Part shown: positions 12,967-21,421 of the stretch, piece by piece
Layout: each line of letters starts with the position of its first letter
Position numbering within the stretch: the first letter of the stretch is position 1
The notes under the pieces: model-generated
The model's database searches: none
Told to the model about the DNA's origin: nothing
Seen by the model: only the letters and a program-made list of their open reading frames with translations
Made by a program: the position numbers and the translations under genes
Origin: Chryseobacterium gleum
GTDB taxonomy: Bacteria > Bacteroidota > Bacteroidia > Flavobacteriales > BACL11
Assembly: GCA_945865535.1 (NCBI GenBank)
Contig: CAMBDW010000002.1
Span: 1 to 64,000 of the forward strand
Reading direction: 5' to 3'
Length of the DNA stretch: 64,000 nucleotides

Positions 12967-13671
12967 ATGAAAAAGATTTTATATTTATTGAGTGCGATTT
13001 CACTAATTTCTTGTGGTAATACAAACTCTCAAATTATTGAAAATATAGAGGCTCCACAATTCCAAAGCCTAACAAATAAAGAAAATGGGATCATTATTGA
13101 TGTAAGAACCCCTGAGGAGTTTTATTCTGGCCATATTAAAGACGCAACTAATATAGATTTTTATTCGGATAAGTTTATAGAAAAATTAAAAATCGTCAGA
13201 AAGGATGTCCCTATTTATGTTTATTGTAGAAGCGGAGGAAGATCTTCCTCCGCAGCTAATAAGATGGAAGAATTGGGATTTACTAAGGTTTATAATTTGG
13301 TTGGAGGAATAGGAGCTTGGGATTCAGAAAATTATCCGACCATTAAATCAAAAGAGGAAAACTCATCAAGCCAGCCTATTTTTACTGTTTTAGAAATTGA
13401 GAATGTTTTAAAAACTAATGAGCTTGTTTTAATAGATTTTAGCACACAATGGTGCGTTCCTTGTAAAAAAATGAAGCCAGTAATTCAGCAGATTCAAAAA
13501 GAAAATTCAAATGTAAAAGTTCTAGTTATAGATGCGGATGCAAATAAAGAACTAATTAAAAAGCACCAAATAAAAGGAGTGCCTGTTTTTATTGTTTTTA
13601 AAAATTCTAAGGAAGTTTTTAGGCATGTAGGCATAGTCTCAAAAGAAGAACTACTCAAACAACTAAATTAA
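12967..13671 (+). CDS. Periplasmic rhodanese-thioredoxin fusion lipoprotein
   Basis: The 234-residue protein has a lipoprotein signal with lipobox LISC (Cys16). Residues about 28-125 are a rhodanese domain with catalytic Cys87 in YCRSGGRSSS. Residues about 135-234 are a thioredoxin domain with WCVPC (Cys163, Cys166). Rhodaneses carry persulfide sulfur on cysteine and thioredoxins reduce such bonds, so the two sites may work in sequence outside the cytoplasm. It stands alone between a terminator and the glycosyltransferase gene, 47 bp downstream. The substrate is unknown. Confidence 0.9.
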   Translation: MKKILYLLSAISLISCGNTNSQIIENIEAPQFQSLTNKENGIIIDVRTPEEFYSGHIKDATNIDFYSDKFIEKLKIVRKDVPIYVYCRSGGRSSSAANKMEELGFTKVYNLVGGIGAWDSENYPTIKSKEENSSSQPIFTVLEIENVLKTNELVLIDFSTQWCVPCKKMKPVIQQIQKENSNVKVLVIDADANKELIKKHQIKGVPVFIVFKNSKEVFRHVGIVSKEELLKQLN

Positions 13672-13718: not shown

Positions 13719-14825
13719 ATGAAAATTGCAATCCTAGGAACTAGAGGAATCCCTAATAATTATGGAGGATTTGAACAGTGCGCAGAGTATTTATCGATAG
13801 GATTGACGCACAAAGGGCATGATGTTACTGTTTACTCTCCTCATTTTCACCCTTATAAAGAGAATGTCTATAAAGGGGTTAAAATTATAAAGAAATTAAG
13901 TCCTGAGAGCTTTTTTGGGAATTCCGCTGCCAATTTTTTTTATGATTATCTATGTTTTAAGGATGCCACTGGTAGAGATTTTGATATTATTCTTGAGCTA
14001 GGGTTAATAACATCTTCATTAGCAATTATTTTTTGTAGCCATAAAGGAAAAATAGTTGTCACCAATCTAGATGGATTAGAATGGAAAAGAGCAAAATGGA
14101 GTAAATTAGTTCAACAAGTCACTAAAAAATTAGAAAAATATGGTGTTTTGTATTCAGATTATTTAATTTCAGACAATATTGGTATTCATGATTATATTAA
14201 AAAAGAGTATCATCTAGAGTCAAAATTTATAGCATATGGTGCGGTTGACATGTTATCTCCAGTAGATACTTGTTTAAACAATTATGGCCTAACTAAGGAT
14301 AATTATTTTTTATCAATCGCTAGATTGGAACCAGAAAATAATTTGGAAATGATGTTTGATGCATATATTTCAAGTAAAAGCCAAATACCTTATTATTTAG
14401 TTGGAAATCACATTACTCCTTATGGTGATTTTCTTAAAGATAAGTATCGTAATAAAGGAATTGTATTTTTAGGAGGGATATATAATAAAACACATTTAGA
14501 TAATATTCGGTATTACTCTAAACTGTATATACATGGCCATTCGGTAGGTGGGACAAATCCTGCTTTACTTGAGGCAATGGCTGCTAAAACTTTAATTTTA
14601 GCGCATGGCAATATTTTTAACAGGTCAGTGCTTGGAGAAAATGCATTTTACTTTTTATCGTCTGATGAATTAAGTAAATTATTTACTGAAGATTTAGAGC
14701 TTAAAAAAGCGGAATTTATTACTAATAACTTAAATAAGATTGATAAAATATATAGATGGTCAGTTGTTGTAGATCAATACGAATCTTATTTTGAGAATAT
14801 ATTCAAAGGATCTAAGAAACAATAA
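13719..14825 (+). CDS. Glycosyltransferase, DUF1972/GT4-like
   Basis: The 368-residue protein begins KIAILGTRGIPNNYGGFEQ, the glycine-rich nucleotide-sugar loop of DUF1972 glycosyltransferases, and has the C-terminal GT-B motif GGTNPALLEAMAAK, which holds the E-x7-E-like region binding the sugar nucleotide. It probably adds a sugar, perhaps rhamnose, to an envelope polysaccharide; the substrate cannot be told. A -7 box (TATTTTTG, 13695-13702) lies 16 nt before the start. Its end overlaps the end of convergent hemW by 14 nt. Confidence 0.85.
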   Translation: MKIAILGTRGIPNNYGGFEQCAEYLSIGLTHKGHDVTVYSPHFHPYKENVYKGVKIIKKLSPESFFGNSAANFFYDYLCFKDATGRDFDIILELGLITSSLAIIFCSHKGKIVVTNLDGLEWKRAKWSKLVQQVTKKLEKYGVLYSDYLISDNIGIHDYIKKEYHLESKFIAYGAVDMLSPVDTCLNNYGLTKDNYFLSIARLEPENNLEMMFDAYISSKSQIPYYLVGNHITPYGDFLKDKYRNKGIVFLGGIYNKTHLDNIRYYSKLYIHGHSVGGTNPALLEAMAAKTLILAHGNIFNRSVLGENAFYFLSSDELSKLFTEDLELKKAEFITNNLNKIDKIYRWSVVVDQYESYFENIFKGSKKQ

Positions 14826-15942
14826 ATAAATCAGATGCAATGGCATCAGCAAATATTTTTCCTTTTGAGCTTAGGGTATAAATATTTGAAACAGCAACAA
14901 TATATTTTTTGGCCTCCCATTTTTTGATTTCCTTAAAGAAATACAATGCAATTTCATCCCCATATCTTTTTAGTATAGTAGCTTTATCTATTCCCCAAAT
15001 TGTTCTTAATGATGTGAAAATGTATTCATTATATTGCTGCTCAGTAGTTAAATTTTCAGATTCAGAATAACTACTATTAGTTATAATACCTTCAATATAT
15101 TTTTTGTTTGAAGAAACATTCCATCTTCTGCTAGTTCCATTAAAAGAATGTGCTGATGGGCCTATGCCTAAATAATGACTGCCTGTCCAATAAGCTGTGT
15201 TATGTTTTGAAAAATACCCCTGCTTACCAAAGTTAGATATCTCATAATGTACAAACCCTTGTGCTTTTGCCATTATCTGTAATAGATTAAATTGAGAAAT
15301 TGTTTTTTTATCGGATAGTACTTTTACTTTTTCATTTTTTACCAAATGATACAATGCGGTTTTTTCTTCAATAGTTAGTGAGTAAGCAGAAAAATGTTGA
15401 ATCCCTAAGCTAAACATAATATCAAGATTCTTCCGCCATTGTTTTAGTGTTTGATTAGGAAGTCCATAGATTAAATCTATAGTAATATTTTGAAATCCAA
15501 CTTTTTTGGCGAGCTCAATACTCTCAATAGCTTCTTTTGCATTGTGAGATCTATTCATGAATTTCAAGTCAGCATCAGCAAATGATTGAACTCCTATACT
15601 CAAACGATTTACTCCTATTTTTTTATAGGATGAAAGTTTAGGGCCCGTCAAATCATCAGGATTGCACTCAACTGTAATCTCAGCATCTTCATTAACTGAG
15701 TATAGTGTATAGATAGTCTGTATCAGATGTTTAATTTCAGAGATACTTAGAATAGACGGGGTACCTCCACCAAAATAGATGCTGCTAACTTCTTTGCCAT
15801 TAAGAAAATCTTTCCTTTCTTTAATTTCTTTGTGCATACTTTTTAGCATTTCAAGTTTGTCTTTTTGGGCAATTTTGAAATGAAAATTACAATAAGTGCA
15901 CTGCTGTTTACAGTAGGGAATATGTATATAAATACCAGCCAC
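14812..15942 (-). CDS. hemW: Radical SAM haem chaperone HemW
   Basis: The 376-residue protein has the HemW form of the radical SAM cluster motif CKQQCTYCNF (C-x3-C-x2-C) at residues 11-20, followed by GGGTPS and GVNRLSIGVQSF, and a HemW C-terminal domain. HemW binds haem and delivers it to respiratory proteins; it was formerly called an anaerobic coproporphyrinogen oxidase. The start is GTG (15940-15942), since the family begins directly at MxGIYIHIP. It is divergent from the haem-acquisition operon, a suggestive neighbour. Confidence 0.9.
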   Translation of the reverse strand: MAGIYIHIPYCKQQCTYCNFHFKIAQKDKLEMLKSMHKEIKERKDFLNGKEVSSIYFGGGTPSILSISEIKHLIQTIYTLYSVNEDAEITVECNPDDLTGPKLSSYKKIGVNRLSIGVQSFADADLKFMNRSHNAKEAIESIELAKKVGFQNITIDLIYGLPNQTLKQWRKNLDIMFSLGIQHFSAYSLTIEEKTALYHLVKNEKVKVLSDKKTISQFNLLQIMAKAQGFVHYEISNFGKQGYFSKHNTAYWTGSHYLGIGPSAHSFNGTSRRWNVSSNKKYIEGIITNSSYSESENLTTEQQYNEYIFTSLRTIWGIDKATILKRYGDEIALYFFKEIKKWEAKKYIVAVSNIYTLSSKGKIFADAIASDLFIVS

Positions 15943-15961: not shown

Positions 15962-15991
15962 TTTGCTAATATAAAAAACTATTTAATTTTG
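15962..15991 (+). promoter_or_regulatory. Promoter of the haem-acquisition operon
   Basis: TTTG (15962-15965), an 18-bp spacer and TAATTTTG (15984-15991) are a close match to the Bacteroidota promoter. The leader to the ATG at 16028 is about 30 nt and contains GAGGA just before the start. No operator could be assigned by eye. Confidence 0.65.
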
Positions 15992-16027
15992 CGCTTATTA
16001 ATAATTAATCTAAATAAGAATAGAGGA

Positions 16028-17203
16028 ATGAAAAAAACAGTTGTTATACTTTTGCTAATTGGATTAGTAACTAATGTAAATGGACAAAATAGTGCAGAAA
16101 AAATTATTGCCGGAAATCCAGGGCTACATATTGGGGGGTATGGTCAAATTGATTTTAATTTAAAAGAAAGAGATGGTACAATTTATAATAACGGGACTTT
16201 AGATGTACACAGATTAGTTACTTTCTTGGGATACAATTTTAATGAAAAGACTTCTTTTGTATCTGAAATAGAATTCGAGCATGTATCAGAAGTTTATGTT
16301 GAACAAGCATTTTTGGATTATAAGATAAAAAATAATTTATCTATTAATGCAGGTTTAATGCTCATTCCAATGGGGATTCAGAATTTATATCATGAGCCAC
16401 CAACTTATAATGGAGTAGAAAGAACCAATATTGACACCTATATAATTCCCACTACTTGGAGAGAGATTGGTATTGGTTTATCCGGCAGAAGTATCGAACA
16501 TTCAATAAACTATCAAGCTATGGCGGTAAATGGGTTTAATGGATTTGAAGATAGTGTAGGTGTATTTAGTGGTAAAAGCGGACTAAGAAGTGGAAGGCAA
16601 AAAGGCGCAGAATCTTACATTACATATCCTGATTTTGCAGCAAGAGTTTCCTATTATGGGAATCCAGGTTTAAATCTTGGGTTTTCTGCTTATTTAGGAG
16701 ATTCGGAAACCAAAGCTTATGATGGTTTAGATTTAGCAGATGATGCGGCTGTTTCGTCTGCAGATTCTACTATAATTGGGATTCAAATGATTGGAGTAGA
16801 TGCAAGATACAATAAGGGGGCTTTAAAATTAACGGGTCAATATATTATTGCAGAATTATCAAATACTGATCAATATAATGGCTTTACAGGAAAAGATTTA
16901 GGAAGTAAATTAACAGGTTACTATGCTGAGGCAGGGTATAATTTATTAGATGGAATAATTCCGTCTATTACTAGTGAGACTGAGGAGTTAATTGCTTTTG
17001 TAAGATATGAGAATTACAATACACATGCAGCTGTTGAAGGGATTGAGTTAAAAGATGCTTACAATAGAACTGATATTACAATTGGGTTAGGATTTAAGCT
17101 TGCGCAGGGAGCTGTATTTAAAGCAGATTATCAAATTAAATCTGATGCCAGCTCTGATGAGGAAAAAGGGCAATTTAATTTTGGTGTAGGAGTTTGGTTT
17201 TAA
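16028..17203 (+). CDS. Outer-membrane porin-like beta-barrel protein
   Basis: The 391-residue protein has a signal peptide (MKKTVVILLLIGLVTNVNGQ) and alternating beta-strand sequence ending in an aromatic residue (GVGVWF), as in outer-membrane barrels. The opening GGYGQIDFNL and the strand pattern resemble phosphate-selective or general Bacteroidota porins. The frame extends upstream to 15989, but ATG at 16028 gives the signal peptide at the N-terminus and lies downstream of the promoter. It leads a same-strand cluster with an FMN-binding protein, a TonB receptor and HmuY. The solute is unknown. Confidence 0.8.
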   Translation: MKKTVVILLLIGLVTNVNGQNSAEKIIAGNPGLHIGGYGQIDFNLKERDGTIYNNGTLDVHRLVTFLGYNFNEKTSFVSEIEFEHVSEVYVEQAFLDYKIKNNLSINAGLMLIPMGIQNLYHEPPTYNGVERTNIDTYIIPTTWREIGIGLSGRSIEHSINYQAMAVNGFNGFEDSVGVFSGKSGLRSGRQKGAESYITYPDFAARVSYYGNPGLNLGFSAYLGDSETKAYDGLDLADDAAVSSADSTIIGIQMIGVDARYNKGALKLTGQYIIAELSNTDQYNGFTGKDLGSKLTGYYAEAGYNLLDGIIPSITSETEELIAFVRYENYNTHAAVEGIELKDAYNRTDITIGLGFKLAQGAVFKADYQIKSDASSDEEKGQFNFGVGVWF

Positions 17204-17223
17204 TTTTTAGTTAATACTATCAA

Positions 17224-17721
17224 ATGAGTTTAAAATCTGAATTAAGTAAAGCGATAACTTTAATGGTTATTGCTTTGCTTTTTTTCTCTTTTAAAGCATC
17301 CTATTGGGAATTTGATAAAAAAAGCAGAGAGATTGTTTCCTCATCAATAGCTAAAATTTTTAAAAGTCAAAATTGTGGTATTGCTGAAATTGATGATACT
17401 TTTTACACTATTAAAAAGGACAATGCTATTGTTGGATATTTAGCAGTAACTGATGCGCCTTCAAAATTCCACACTTTTGATTATTATATACTATTTGATA
17501 ATAAAGCAGAAATATTAAAAGTTGAAATATTACATTATAGAGAAAATTGGGGAGCCGAAATTTGTAGTCCAAAATGGTTGAAACAATTTATAGGTATTGA
17601 TACTGAGAATTCTCAAGCATACAATAATGGTGTTGATGGGATTTCAGGAGCAACTTTATCTGTAAATAGTTTGAAATACGACTTACTTAAAACCTGTAAA
17701 GCGTTAAAATTAAAACTATGA
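17224..17721 (+). CDS. FMN-binding domain protein, membrane anchored
   Basis: The 165-residue protein has an N-terminal membrane helix (about 10-24) and an extracytoplasmic FMN_bind domain. The motif DGISGATLS carries Thr144, the residue to which ApbE attaches FMN covalently in this family (as in NqrC and RnfG). It lies 20 bp after the porin gene and 52 bp before the TonB receptor. A flavin carrier here could move electrons into the periplasm, for instance to reduce ferric haem or iron; this is inference. No apbE gene is in the window. Confidence 0.85.
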   Translation: MSLKSELSKAITLMVIALLFFSFKASYWEFDKKSREIVSSSIAKIFKSQNCGIAEIDDTFYTIKKDNAIVGYLAVTDAPSKFHTFDYYILFDNKAEILKVEILHYRENWGAEICSPKWLKQFIGIDTENSQAYNNGVDGISGATLSVNSLKYDLLKTCKALKLKL

Positions 17722-17751
17722 TAGATAGTATAAAAGCTGAAAAATTAACTT

Positions 17752-17759
17752 TATTTTTG
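17752..17759 (+). promoter_or_regulatory. Candidate internal -7 box before the TonB receptor
   Basis: TATTTTTG matches TAnnTTTG and lies 14 nt before the GTG start of the receptor gene. No good -33 element is seen at the expected distance. It would allow the receptor and HmuY genes to be expressed apart from the porin. Confidence 0.4.
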
Positions 17760-17773
17760 CAGCAAATTTTGAA

Positions 17774-19837
17774 GTGAAAAATTGTATTATGATATCTTGT
17801 ATGCTAACAACTTATTTTGCTTTCTCTCAGGGGCAGAATGATACTATTTTAATTGATAAAGACTTACAAGAAGTAATAATTTCTGCAACAAAAACATCTC
17901 AAACAATAACTCAATTGCCTATTCCAGTTGTAGTAATTTCAGAAAATGAAATTAAGAATTTTTGTTCCAGTAAATTACATGATGTAATTACTGCCCAAAC
18001 TGGTATTGTAAGCGTTACTACCCAAACCGGTACAGAGGGCTTACAAATGCAAGGTTTAGACGCTTCTTATATCACTATTCTTATGGATGGCTTTCCAATT
18101 ATTGGAAGATCATTTGGGACTTTAGATTTAAATAGAATCTCGGTATCAGATATTCAAAGTATTGAAGTTGTAAAGGGAGCGTCTTCAAGTTTGTATGGAT
18201 CTAATGCTTTAGGGGGAGTTGTAAATTTAATTAGTAAAACTGACATGAATGATGGCCCAATAATTAAGACCTCATTTAAATTAGCCACTCATAATACTAC
18301 TAATGCAAGTTTAATTTATCAGTACAAAGAAGGATCTTTCCAGATTTCAAATGCGGTTGATTATTACAATACTGATGGATACGATTTAATAGATTCGGAT
18401 TTGCTTAGTACTGTTAATCCTTATTCTAATTACACATTTCGATCGAATTTAAAATTTGCAATATCTGATAAACTTTCACTTAAGACCAATGCTCATTATT
18501 ATAAACAAGAACAACTAAATATTGCTAATGAATCGAGTTCCTTGCTGCAGGGGGAGAGCAAAATTAAGGAATGGAGTGCTGGGGCTTCTGTTAAATATTT
18601 GATGTGTCCTCATTTTTCTCCAGAGCTAGAGATTTACAAAACCAATTACAGAACGGATGAGTTTTTAAATACTGAAGATGGGGCCTTGTATGAAGAAAAT
18701 TATTTTGATCATACATTGTTACAATCAGAATTGAAATCACATTTTACCTATAAAGGAGTGAATAGTATTGTAGGTCTAGGAATAACAAAAGATGAATTAT
18801 CAAGAAGAGATTTTACTAATGATGCAACCCAAGATTTAAAGTTTATTTACGGACAATTTGACGCTACTGCTTTTAAAAAAGTGAATATTATACTCGGAAG
18901 CAGGTATGATAATTATGCTAATTACACTCCAGTTGTATCTAATAAATTAGCACTAGGATTTTCTCTTACCAATAAAATAAAAATAAATAGTTCCGTGGGG
19001 ACAGGCTTTAAAACTCCTGATTTTAGGCAAAAGTATTTTGACTTTACCAATTCAACCATTGGATATATAGTGCTTGGAAGAGATGTTGTTATTGATAGGC
19101 TAGAGGCCATGCCAAATGTTCAGCAAATAATCCCACTTTCAGAATTGAATACTCCTTTAAAATCGGAAACTTCACTCAATATCAATATTGGATTAAGATA
19201 TAACCCAACAAATAATTTGTCTTTTGATTTCAACTTCTTTAATAATAAAGTAAATGATTTGATTGAATGGAAGTTGGTTGCTAAAGATGAAAACAACATA
19301 AATATTTACAGCTATTTTAATGTAAATCAAGTTGAAACTAAAGGGTTGGAGTTTAATTCAACTTTTACAAAAATGGATAAATGGGAAATTAAATTCGGAT
19401 ATCAATTGCTTTACGCCTACGATACAGAGGTTGTAAACAATATTAAAAATGACACTTCCTACTTTGCTCGTGATCCAGAAACATTAACAAGTATTAAGCT
19501 TAATAAAGATGACTATTTTGGACTTTTTAATAGATCCAGACATATGGGAAATATCAAACTCAACTATCATCTAAATGATAAAACGGACTTGAATGGCTTA
19601 CTTACTTACAGAAGTAAATATGCTCTTTCTGATTCTAATGGAAATGATATTTTGGACACCTATGATAACTTTACAGATGGCTATAGTTTATGTGATATAG
19701 GAATTACACATCATATAAACTCACTTAGATCTTTTCAACTTGGGGTAAAAAACATCTTTGGATTTACAAATCCAGAATACATAAGTAATATAACAGGAAG
19801 GTTATATTATATGAGTTGTACAATCAATTTTAAATAA
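17774..19837 (+). CDS. TonB-dependent receptor, probable haem/haemophore receptor
   Basis: The 687-residue protein starts with GTG and a signal peptide ending near FAFSQG. The plug domain is clear (about 35-150: EVIISATKTSQ, ILMDGFPIIG, VVKGASSSLYGSNALGGVV), followed by a 22-strand-type barrel ending in an aromatic-containing strand (YYMSCTINFK). The block GFKTPDFRQKYFDFTN resembles HmuR-type receptors of Bacteroidota. The downstream HmuY-family gene strongly supports haem as ligand. Transport needs TonB; ExbB/ExbD-type genes lie at 45.5-47.6 kb. Confidence 0.9.
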   Translation: MKNCIMISCMLTTYFAFSQGQNDTILIDKDLQEVIISATKTSQTITQLPIPVVVISENEIKNFCSSKLHDVITAQTGIVSVTTQTGTEGLQMQGLDASYITILMDGFPIIGRSFGTLDLNRISVSDIQSIEVVKGASSSLYGSNALGGVVNLISKTDMNDGPIIKTSFKLATHNTTNASLIYQYKEGSFQISNAVDYYNTDGYDLIDSDLLSTVNPYSNYTFRSNLKFAISDKLSLKTNAHYYKQEQLNIANESSSLLQGESKIKEWSAGASVKYLMCPHFSPELEIYKTNYRTDEFLNTEDGALYEENYFDHTLLQSELKSHFTYKGVNSIVGLGITKDELSRRDFTNDATQDLKFIYGQFDATAFKKVNIILGSRYDNYANYTPVVSNKLALGFSLTNKIKINSSVGTGFKTPDFRQKYFDFTNSTIGYIVLGRDVVIDRLEAMPNVQQIIPLSELNTPLKSETSLNINIGLRYNPTNNLSFDFNFFNNKVNDLIEWKLVAKDENNINIYSYFNVNQVETKGLEFNSTFTKMDKWEIKFGYQLLYAYDTEVVNNIKNDTSYFARDPETLTSIKLNKDDYFGLFNRSRHMGNIKLNYHLNDKTDLNGLLTYRSKYALSDSNGNDILDTYDNFTDGYSLCDIGITHHINSLRSFQLGVKNIFGFTNPEYISNITGRLYYMSCTINFK

Positions 19838-19868
19838 AATCAATTAATAAATAAAAACAAAAACAAAA

Positions 19869-20366
19869 ATGAAAACAAAAATGAAAACAATTTTATCAGT
19901 ATGTATGCTTGCGAGCTTACTTTATGCGTGCACAAAAAGTGATAAGGGACCTTTAGATTGTAGCGGTATTGAAAATGGTGTAGCTGCTTTGGATGATTGT
20001 GGTACTTGTCAGCAATCCTATATTTATAATCTTGCAACTAATACCCCAACTTACGTTGATGATACAGCTGGCATTTATCTAGCAGCAAATGAAATGCTTA
20101 TTTTAGCAGGATCAGCTGCAGATATTGCTTCTAATCCAGCTTGGAACGCTAGTTGTACAGACTGTAATGATATTGTAAATGGAATAGCTGCACTTGATTC
20201 TTGTGACGTATGCCATCAATCATACATCTATAATTTTGTAACTCATATCCCAACTTATATTGTTGATACAACTGGATTGTCATTAGATCCTTCAACTCAA
20301 ATGCTTATTTTAGCAGGCTCACCTCAAGATATTGCTTCTAATCCAAATTGGAATAATTGTAAATAA
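19869..20366 (+). CDS. Duplicated Cys-rich lipoprotein of the haem operon
   Basis: Not a family I recognise. The 165-residue protein has a lipobox (LLYAC, Cys21) and two tandem modules of about 66 residues (31-96 and 99-164). Each module holds NGxAALDxC, CxxC, QSYIYN, a PTY-x-x-DT block and MLILAGSxxDIASNPxWN, and begins and ends with Cys. In module 2 the CxxC is CDVCH (112-116), a haem-attachment-like CxxCH; module 1 has CGTCQ instead. ATG at 19881 (161 residues) is a possible start. Its place between the receptor and HmuY suggests a surface haem-binding or docking role. Confidence 0.8.
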   Translation: MKTKMKTILSVCMLASLLYACTKSDKGPLDCSGIENGVAALDDCGTCQQSYIYNLATNTPTYVDDTAGIYLAANEMLILAGSAADIASNPAWNASCTDCNDIVNGIAALDSCDVCHQSYIYNFVTHIPTYIVDTTGLSLDPSTQMLILAGSPQDIASNPNWNNCK

Positions 20367-20370
20367 TATT

Positions 20371-20982
20371 ATGAAATACACTAGCTTTTTTTTTCTACTT
20401 AGCCTTTTTCTTTTTGCTTCTTGTGAGAAAAGTAATAATGATGAAATTATTATAGATGAAGCTGTAATTAAATTTGTAGAGTTAAATGCCAGTGAGTATA
20501 CTGTTAATACTTCTGATACATCATTAGCAATTGGTAAATATACAAGATTCAGTTTCTCTGAAGGAGATACGGTTAGTCATGATAATTGGGATGTAGCCTT
20601 TAGCGGGACAACAATACTTGTTAACGGGGGCAGCCCTTTTGGGGATAATCAACCTGGCAGATCAGGAAATGCCGCAGTTTATATTGCTACAGGTATTATG
20701 TCAGATATTAAAACGGTTGATGTAAGTAAATTTATTCAAGATGATACTAACTCTCCAGCAATAGCTAATGATTATGGTTTTTCAGATAAAGGGTGGTGCT
20801 CATATTCGGGAGCTCCAGATCATATAATAAGTCCTATCCCAGGAAAGATATTAGTATTTAGAACACATGATGGGAAACATTATGCTAAAATGGAGATTCT
20901 TAATTTCTATGACACGCCTATAACTAGTCAATATGGTGGATATTATACATTTAATTATGTCTATCAATCTGATAACAACTAA
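20371..20982 (+). CDS. HmuY family haem-binding lipoprotein
   Basis: The 203-residue protein has a lipobox (FASC, Cys17) and the HmuY fold pattern: KYTRFSFSEGD, DNWDVAFSG and the closing strand GGYYTFNYVYQ. HmuY of Porphyromonas is a surface haemophore that takes haem from host or environmental proteins and passes it to its TonB receptor. Candidate ligands are His residues in SGAPDH and RTHDGKHYAK. The frame is open from 20332, inside the upstream gene, but ATG at 20371 gives the lipoprotein signal. It is the last gene of the operon, before a strong terminator. Confidence 0.88.
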   Translation: MKYTSFFFLLSLFLFASCEKSNNDEIIIDEAVIKFVELNASEYTVNTSDTSLAIGKYTRFSFSEGDTVSHDNWDVAFSGTTILVNGGSPFGDNQPGRSGNAAVYIATGIMSDIKTVDVSKFIQDDTNSPAIANDYGFSDKGWCSYSGAPDHIISPIPGKILVFRTHDGKHYAKMEILNFYDTPITSQYGGYYTFNYVYQSDNN

Positions 20983-21006
20983 TTTTTAAAAGAAGTTTTA
21001 TTTAAT

Positions 21007-21034
21007 AAAAAAGCCTCCAACTGGAGGCTTTTTT
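21007..21034 (+). terminator. Strong terminator of the haem operon
   Basis: AAAAAAGCCTCCA (21007-21019) pairs perfectly with TGGAGGCTTTTTT (21022-21034), a 13-bp stem with a 2-nt gap and a T-tract. The symmetric A and T tracts would let it act on both strands. Confidence 0.93.
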
Positions 21035-21046: not shown

Positions 21047-21421
21047 ATGCAAGAAGATTATTTTTCGCACCTAACACCTGAGGAAAAACACATCCTCAAA
21101 GACAAAGGCACTGAAGCTCCTTTTACTGGAGAATACAATGACTTTTATGAAGTCGGTATTTTTATATGTAGAGCATGTAAATCGCCACTTTACCAATCTA
21201 GCACCAAATTTAACTCTGGTTGTGGCTGGCCCTCATTTGATGATGAGATTAAGGGAGCTATTGTGCGCTATGAAGATTTAAGTAGAGGTAGAGTAAGAAC
21301 AGAAATTTGCTGCGCTAAGTGCGATGGTCATTTAGGCCATGTTTTTCATGGAGAGCAGATTACTGAAAAAGACACAAGGCATTGTGTAAATTCTTTAAGT
21401 ATACAGTTTAAAGCTTTGTAA
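21047..21421 (+). CDS. msrB: Peptide-methionine (R)-S-oxide reductase
   Basis: The 124-residue enzyme reduces the R-epimer of methionine sulfoxide in proteins. Zinc ligands are seen in CRAC and CAKC, the fold signature in SGCGWPSF and GHLGHVF, and the catalytic Cys in RHCVNSLS. It lies between the terminator of the haem operon and a convergent histidine kinase gene. It is predicted to have a leaderless mRNA. Confidence 0.94.
   Translation: MQEDYFSHLTPEEKHILKDKGTEAPFTGEYNDFYEVGIFICRACKSPLYQSSTKFNSGCGWPSFDDEIKGAIVRYEDLSRGRVRTEICCAKCDGHLGHVFHGEQITEKDTRHCVNSLSIQFKAL

Follow-up and report, generated by a model that had tools for sequence, protein, structure and literature searches.

A gene pair for a porin and a flavin carrier lies directly before a TonB receptor-HmuY locus in the window, the 64,000-nucleotide stretch of DNA analysed here, which belongs to a genome of 1.5 Mb (94% complete). 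The five genes are on one strand (16028-20982, +) and encode a porin, an FMN_bind protein, a TonB-dependent receptor, a Cys-rich lipoprotein and an HmuY-family lipoprotein. Judged by their sequence, they are best read as two adjacent units and not as one operon, the first consisting of the porin and FMN_bind genes and the second of the receptor, Cys-rich lipoprotein and HmuY genes. We give about an even chance to the reading that these units are separately promoted and functionally linked, with the flavin carrier aiding the use of haem or ferric iron by TonB-dependent uptake. To our knowledge, little is understood of how Bacteroidota free the iron of haem or ferric complexes once these have been imported by the TonB-dependent route. 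A flavin carrier that is conserved and found at HmuY loci, and whose flavinylation site does not vary, is a testable candidate for the reducing step, and it points to a likely function for a number of uncharacterised families, namely a four-helix (4-TM) protein, DUF6607 and the porin of the window.

Gene Organization of the Locus

The features of the locus are as follows.

14812-15942, minus strand: hemW, a divergent fixed neighbour outside the system
15963-15991, plus strand: putative porin promoter of the Bacteroidota type, TTG-N18-TAATTTTG
16028-17203, plus strand: outer-membrane porin, PF07396-like, with signal peptide
17224-17721, plus strand: FMN_bind protein, membrane-anchored and periplasmic, motif DGISGATLS with Thr144
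17752-17759, plus strand: -7 element TATTTTTG of a putative second promoter, before the receptor
17774-19837, plus strand: TonB-dependent receptor, start GTG at 17774 or ATG at 17789
19869-20366, plus strand: Cys-rich lipoprotein with two similar halves, lipobox Cys21
20371-20982, plus strand: HmuY-family lipoprotein
21007-21034, plus strand: intrinsic terminator, 12-pair stem, 4-nt loop and T run

An initial annotation had described five same-strand genes, and this is borne out by gene calls and Pfam matches with small corrections to the start codons (ATG at 16028 for the porin and ATG at 20371 for HmuY). The terminator after HmuY, the SGAT motif with Thr144 in the FMN_bind protein and the duplication within the Cys-rich lipoprotein were also found as described. 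The match of the porin is marginal (PF07396, Porin_O_P; 21.9 bits, cut-off 20.9), and the 165-residue FMN_bind protein scores 28.4 bits with PF04205 (cut-off 22). The receptor matches PF00593 with 108 bits and PF07715 with 74 bits.

The divergent gene at 15942 is hemW (TIGR00539, 303.6 bits), as annotated. Its use as evidence of a haem role was rejected, because hemW is a fixed neighbour of the porin-FMN_bind pair also where HmuY is not on site. Upstream of a glycosyltransferase gene, positions 12967-13671 of the window encode a lipoprotein that combines rhodanese and thioredoxin domains. The msrB gene downstream of the locus (21047-21421) is a 124-aa single-domain gene, and most relatives have a 280-aa protein at that place.

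Arrangement of the Two Modules in the Window's Family

The relatives named here are Flavobacteriales metagenome assemblies. The gene order taken in the initial annotation as a check on the system is conserved in part: among the family genomes with copies of both modules, they are adjacent in 5 of 11 and apart in 6. The receptor and HmuY genes, with or without the Cys-rich lipoprotein gene, lie between FMN_bind and msrB in the window and in G021, G029, G009 and G020. In G012, G034, G046 and G047 the porin-FMN_bind pair is situated directly between hemW and msrB, and the receptor, Cys-rich lipoprotein and HmuY genes are elsewhere; in the first three of these and in others, that set is followed by genes for a 147-aa membrane protein, a response regulator and a histidine kinase. 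The G028 locus ends at a contig end in this comparison of FMN_bind and msrB neighbours. On a receptor tree of the family, those encoded behind FMN_bind are intermixed with those encoded elsewhere, at a cost of at least three changes, which indicates that the co-localisation was gained or lost repeatedly.

A C-terminal HmuY remnant is present between FMN_bind and msrB in G041 (L054:9997-10230), which points either to a deletion of the TonB-HmuY module in that genome or to a join in the assembly. The 147-aa protein is of a four-helix type, and together with the OmpR-type regulator and the histidine kinase it occurs behind porin-FMN_bind in genus g7 and behind the TonB-Cys-HmuY set in g10 and g12 (L066:5557-7920 and L077:9726-12086). 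A methionine-sulfoxide (MsrQ-like) role suggested by the msrB neighbour was rejected, because msrB adjoins porin-FMN_bind only in the window's family; elsewhere the neighbour is usually guaB.

Co-localisation beyond the Family

From 84,980 genomes scanned, 331 relatives of the FMN_bind protein were obtained, and the best 80 were analysed. The porin gene lies directly upstream of FMN_bind in 78 of these 80 loci, and 70 of them have a gene for a 161-aa 4-TM membrane protein behind FMN_bind, which guaB often follows in turn. TonB and/or DUF6607 genes of an HmuY-type locus are found within 9 kb in 8 of the 71 loci outside the family (L108, L109, L110, L132, L143, L144, L152 and L173). A search of viral contigs found no relatives.

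An FMN_bind gene is present in 135 genomes of a Flavobacteriaceae sample (n = 395), and 131 of these were searched for HmuY. A strong HmuY match was obtained in 30 of the 131 and none in about 100, which indicates that the coupling to haem is optional and that the basic task of the carrier is wider than haem. Where both are present, FMN_bind and HmuY lie within 5 kb of one another in 12 of 30 genomes, and 0.09 are expected by chance; the computed probability of 4e-23 takes no account of shared ancestry, which inflates the statistic, and should not be read at face value. Across genomes, the two modules lie close together more often than chance would give. Their arrangement varies and is divergent, on the same strand with HmuY first, or convergent. 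Co-occurrence at the level of whole genomes is weak, with 3 genomes outside the window's family carrying both strongly in the sample of the order.

The FMN_bind tree (126 proteins) requires 13 changes of the label "near HmuY", at least 7 of them forced by well supported branches. One clade of 15 members is encoded directly behind DUF6607, lacks the porin and is divergent from TonB-HmuY or TonB-double HmuY in all the regions seen, which were partly picked for nearness to HmuY or for low score. Four genomes (G446, G453, G523 and G742) have two FMN_bind copies, and the lower-scoring one is right behind DUF6607 and divergent from TonB-HmuY. The HmuY-first loci of Flavobacterium-type genomes (L083, L084 and L086-L088) contain genes of DUF6607 size and no FMN_bind, which marks the carrier as an optional addition. 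The redox link to haem or iron uptake that had been proposed for the window is soundly drawn, since the pairing of FMN_bind with TonB-HmuY recurs far more than chance would give, in several lineages and with several arrangements. Its repeated occurrence in related marine bacteria suggests that flavin-borne electrons may help in the use of haem iron.

The porin and FMN_bind genes, with or without the 4-TM protein, might instead serve the envelope as a general redox module for some other task, so that its nearness to haem loci would reflect shared regulation or an accident of gene order. HmuY is missing from most genomes with the module, beside which the 4-TM protein and guaB are usually encoded, and in the window's family the site of hemW, porin, FMN_bind and msrB also occurs without HmuY. 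Such a reading does not account easily for the recurrent co-localisation in several arrangements or for a dedicated DUF6607-FMN_bind clade at TonB-HmuY loci, and we regard it as rather doubtful.

The DUF6607 protein (PF20311) is highly conserved (L189:9038-9961 and relatives); its gene runs divergently to TonB-HmuY and is often the first in a unit that includes an FMN_bind paralogue. No mention of DUF6607 was found in the open-access literature searched.

HmuY, the Cys-rich Lipoprotein and the Receptor

The protein encoded at 20371-20982 matches PF14064 with 29.7 bits (cut-off 27). The AlphaFold2 model is modest (pLDDT 64.6, from 9 sequences), and its top fold matches are HmuY relatives, 8b6a (Z 15.6) followed by 3h8t, 6ewm, 6r2h and 6eu8. 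Superposition on haem-bound HmuY (3h8t) gives a Z score of 15.2 and an rmsd of 3.1 over 148 residues with 27% identity. As judged from this predicted model, membership in the HmuY fold is firm. In a comparison of 20 relatives, His-151 and His-166 are nearly invariant.

The Cys-rich lipoprotein has no significant match among Pfam and other family models, and its relatives are found at TonB-HmuY loci of the window's family. It would be an accessory protein in an HmuY-type haem-uptake locus. Relatives contain one to three repeats, with CxxC mostly followed by Gln or His. Assignment as a c-type cytochrome was rejected, as CxxCH accounts for 9 of 28 CxxC sites and CxxCQ for 14 of 28, and the motif is not conserved.

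The receptor scores 129.4 bits with the haem-receptor model TIGR01785, below its cut-off of 316.85, and its best sequence matches among solved structures are the colicin I receptor and catecholate siderophore receptors. The ligand is thus not given by the sequence. These siderophore-type matches are in keeping with a carrier that assimilates iron generally, for example by reducing ferric iron delivered by siderophore or other receptors, with the HmuY-linked copies as one branch. It is already known that flavinylation clusters can include TonB genes and iron transporters (PMC8238504), and the module is common without HmuY. We consider a general iron role unlikely in view of the specialised clade, all observed members of which were at HmuY or double-HmuY loci, in a sample partly chosen for HmuY.

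Promoter Elements and the Gap between the Units

The putative porin promoter recurs at the same position and with the same pattern in most relatives. The initial annotation had assigned this one promoter to all five genes. A second conserved element, TATTTTTG, precedes the receptor in the 52-nt gap behind FMN_bind, inside the block ACTT..ATTTTTGCA..AAATTTTTGAAGTGAAAA, and it is shared with relatives whose receptor is not behind FMN_bind. The block is closely matched upstream of receptors that in relatives stand behind a class-III aminotransferase gene and not behind FMN_bind. In G009 and G020, where the receptor is behind FMN_bind, the TATTTTTG-type element is degenerate. The background of TAnnTTTG inside open reading frames is about 0.14 per 160 nt, which makes a lone match weak evidence; the promoter argument rests on conservation.

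In G029, a divergent AraC-family gene is located between FMN_bind and the receptor. An assignment of this 300-aa gene to DUF6607 was rejected; it encodes an AraC-type regulator. Because of this gene and the conserved gap element, the five genes are read as two units. No terminator was found in the gap in the window, and read-through from FMN_bind into the receptor gene is therefore possible.

A porin and flavin carrier built into a single haem operon with one promoter, as first annotated, would agree with the shared strand, the 52-nt gap and the lack of a terminator there, but it is very improbable given the conserved -7 element before the receptor, the divergent AraC-type gene in G029 and two separable modules that lie apart in 6 of 11 family genomes.

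Proposed Role of the Flavin Carrier

In the reading of two linked units, the HmuY lipoprotein would capture haem, and the TonB receptor would import haem or haem iron to the periplasm. The [SA]GATxS motif with the flavinylation threonine is present in 126 of 126 FMN_bind homologues, and in the carrier of the window Thr144 is the predicted site of flavinylation by the ApbE protein encoded beside nqr. An apbE gene elsewhere in the genome had been anticipated; there is one, at C10:66.0-67.0 kb, found only near nqr genes, with an nqrC-like FMN_bind gene at 62.9 kb.

From the quinone/NQR side of the membrane, the carrier probably passes electrons to an acceptor in the periplasm. This would most likely be ferric iron or haem iron from TonB-dependent uptake, whose reduction would ease iron release and onward transport. 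The porin may admit a small substrate or a counter-ion, and the two units would presumably be regulated together.

The electron donor, NQR or another quinol-linked protein, is a guess, and none is encoded in the unit: no core transmembrane electron-transfer protein was found among the genes from hemW to msrB. In the window's genome, a search with the 4-TM protein gave only a chance-like match of 35 residues, the 147-aa membrane protein had no match, and DUF6607 had none either, a result that is not firm, as no control genome matched. By these searches, no dedicated membrane donor was found in the genome.

Comparison with Known Systems

In Flavobacterium psychrophilum, the locus hfpR-THC0290_1813-hfpY is iron-repressed with a promoter before hfpR, and HfpY, a flavobacterial HmuY relative, is a haem-binding protein required for the use of haem (PMC9331221). 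The locus shares a region of 19 kb with further genes that respond to iron, some of them putatively involved in electron transfer (PMC9331221). The second unit of the window has the same order of TonB receptor, middle gene and HmuY-like gene, with a promoter element before the receptor. In contrast, the middle gene of the Hfp system belongs to the DoxX family, whereas that of the window encodes the Cys-rich lipoprotein, and no porin-FMN_bind pair is mentioned for Hfp (PMC9331221). The hmuYR(STUV) locus of Porphyromonas gingivalis also combines an HmuY-fold lipoprotein with a TonB receptor, but the window's unit has no CobN-like chelatase or membrane transport genes, and its receptor gene precedes HmuY.

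Across 31,910 genomes, flavinylation clusters have been described that have iron roles, and some of these include TonB genes (PMC8238504); the text of that paper contains neither "porin" nor "Bacteroid-". As in its PepSY- and MsrQ-like clusters, an FMN_bind protein would carry flavin outside the cytoplasm in a link to TonB-dependent iron uptake. Unlike them, the window's unit has a conserved porin partner and lacks PepSY, MsrQ or any other recognised transmembrane donor, and an association with HmuY is not described for these clusters in the literature found. The carrier shares the FMN_bind domain and SGAT flavinylation motif with NqrC and RnfG, but it is far below the nqrC and rnfG cut-offs and outside any nqr or rnf operon. 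No paper joining FMN-binding and HmuY was found in the open-access literature, which is weak evidence of novelty with most subscription papers outside that scope.

More broadly, Flavobacteriia may have an undescribed flavin-based envelope system, made up of a porin, a flavinylated carrier and the 4-TM protein or of DUF6607 and a flavinylated carrier, which would have been recruited repeatedly to HmuY loci to drive the reductive use of haem or ferric iron. This is a tentative proposal that we hold to be possible and short of probable.

The model of the 4-TM protein is confident (pLDDT 92.1), and comparison with solved structures listed no convincing relative. The 161-aa family has no Pfam match over cut-off, contains invariant His-77 and His-79, and in Flavobacteriaceae is almost always encoded behind FMN_bind (L068:9114-9602 and relatives). 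FMN_bind genes with one or two in-frame stops occur in G769:C10, G436:C6 and G602:C3, which points to possible decay of the gene in a few Flavobacteriaceae.
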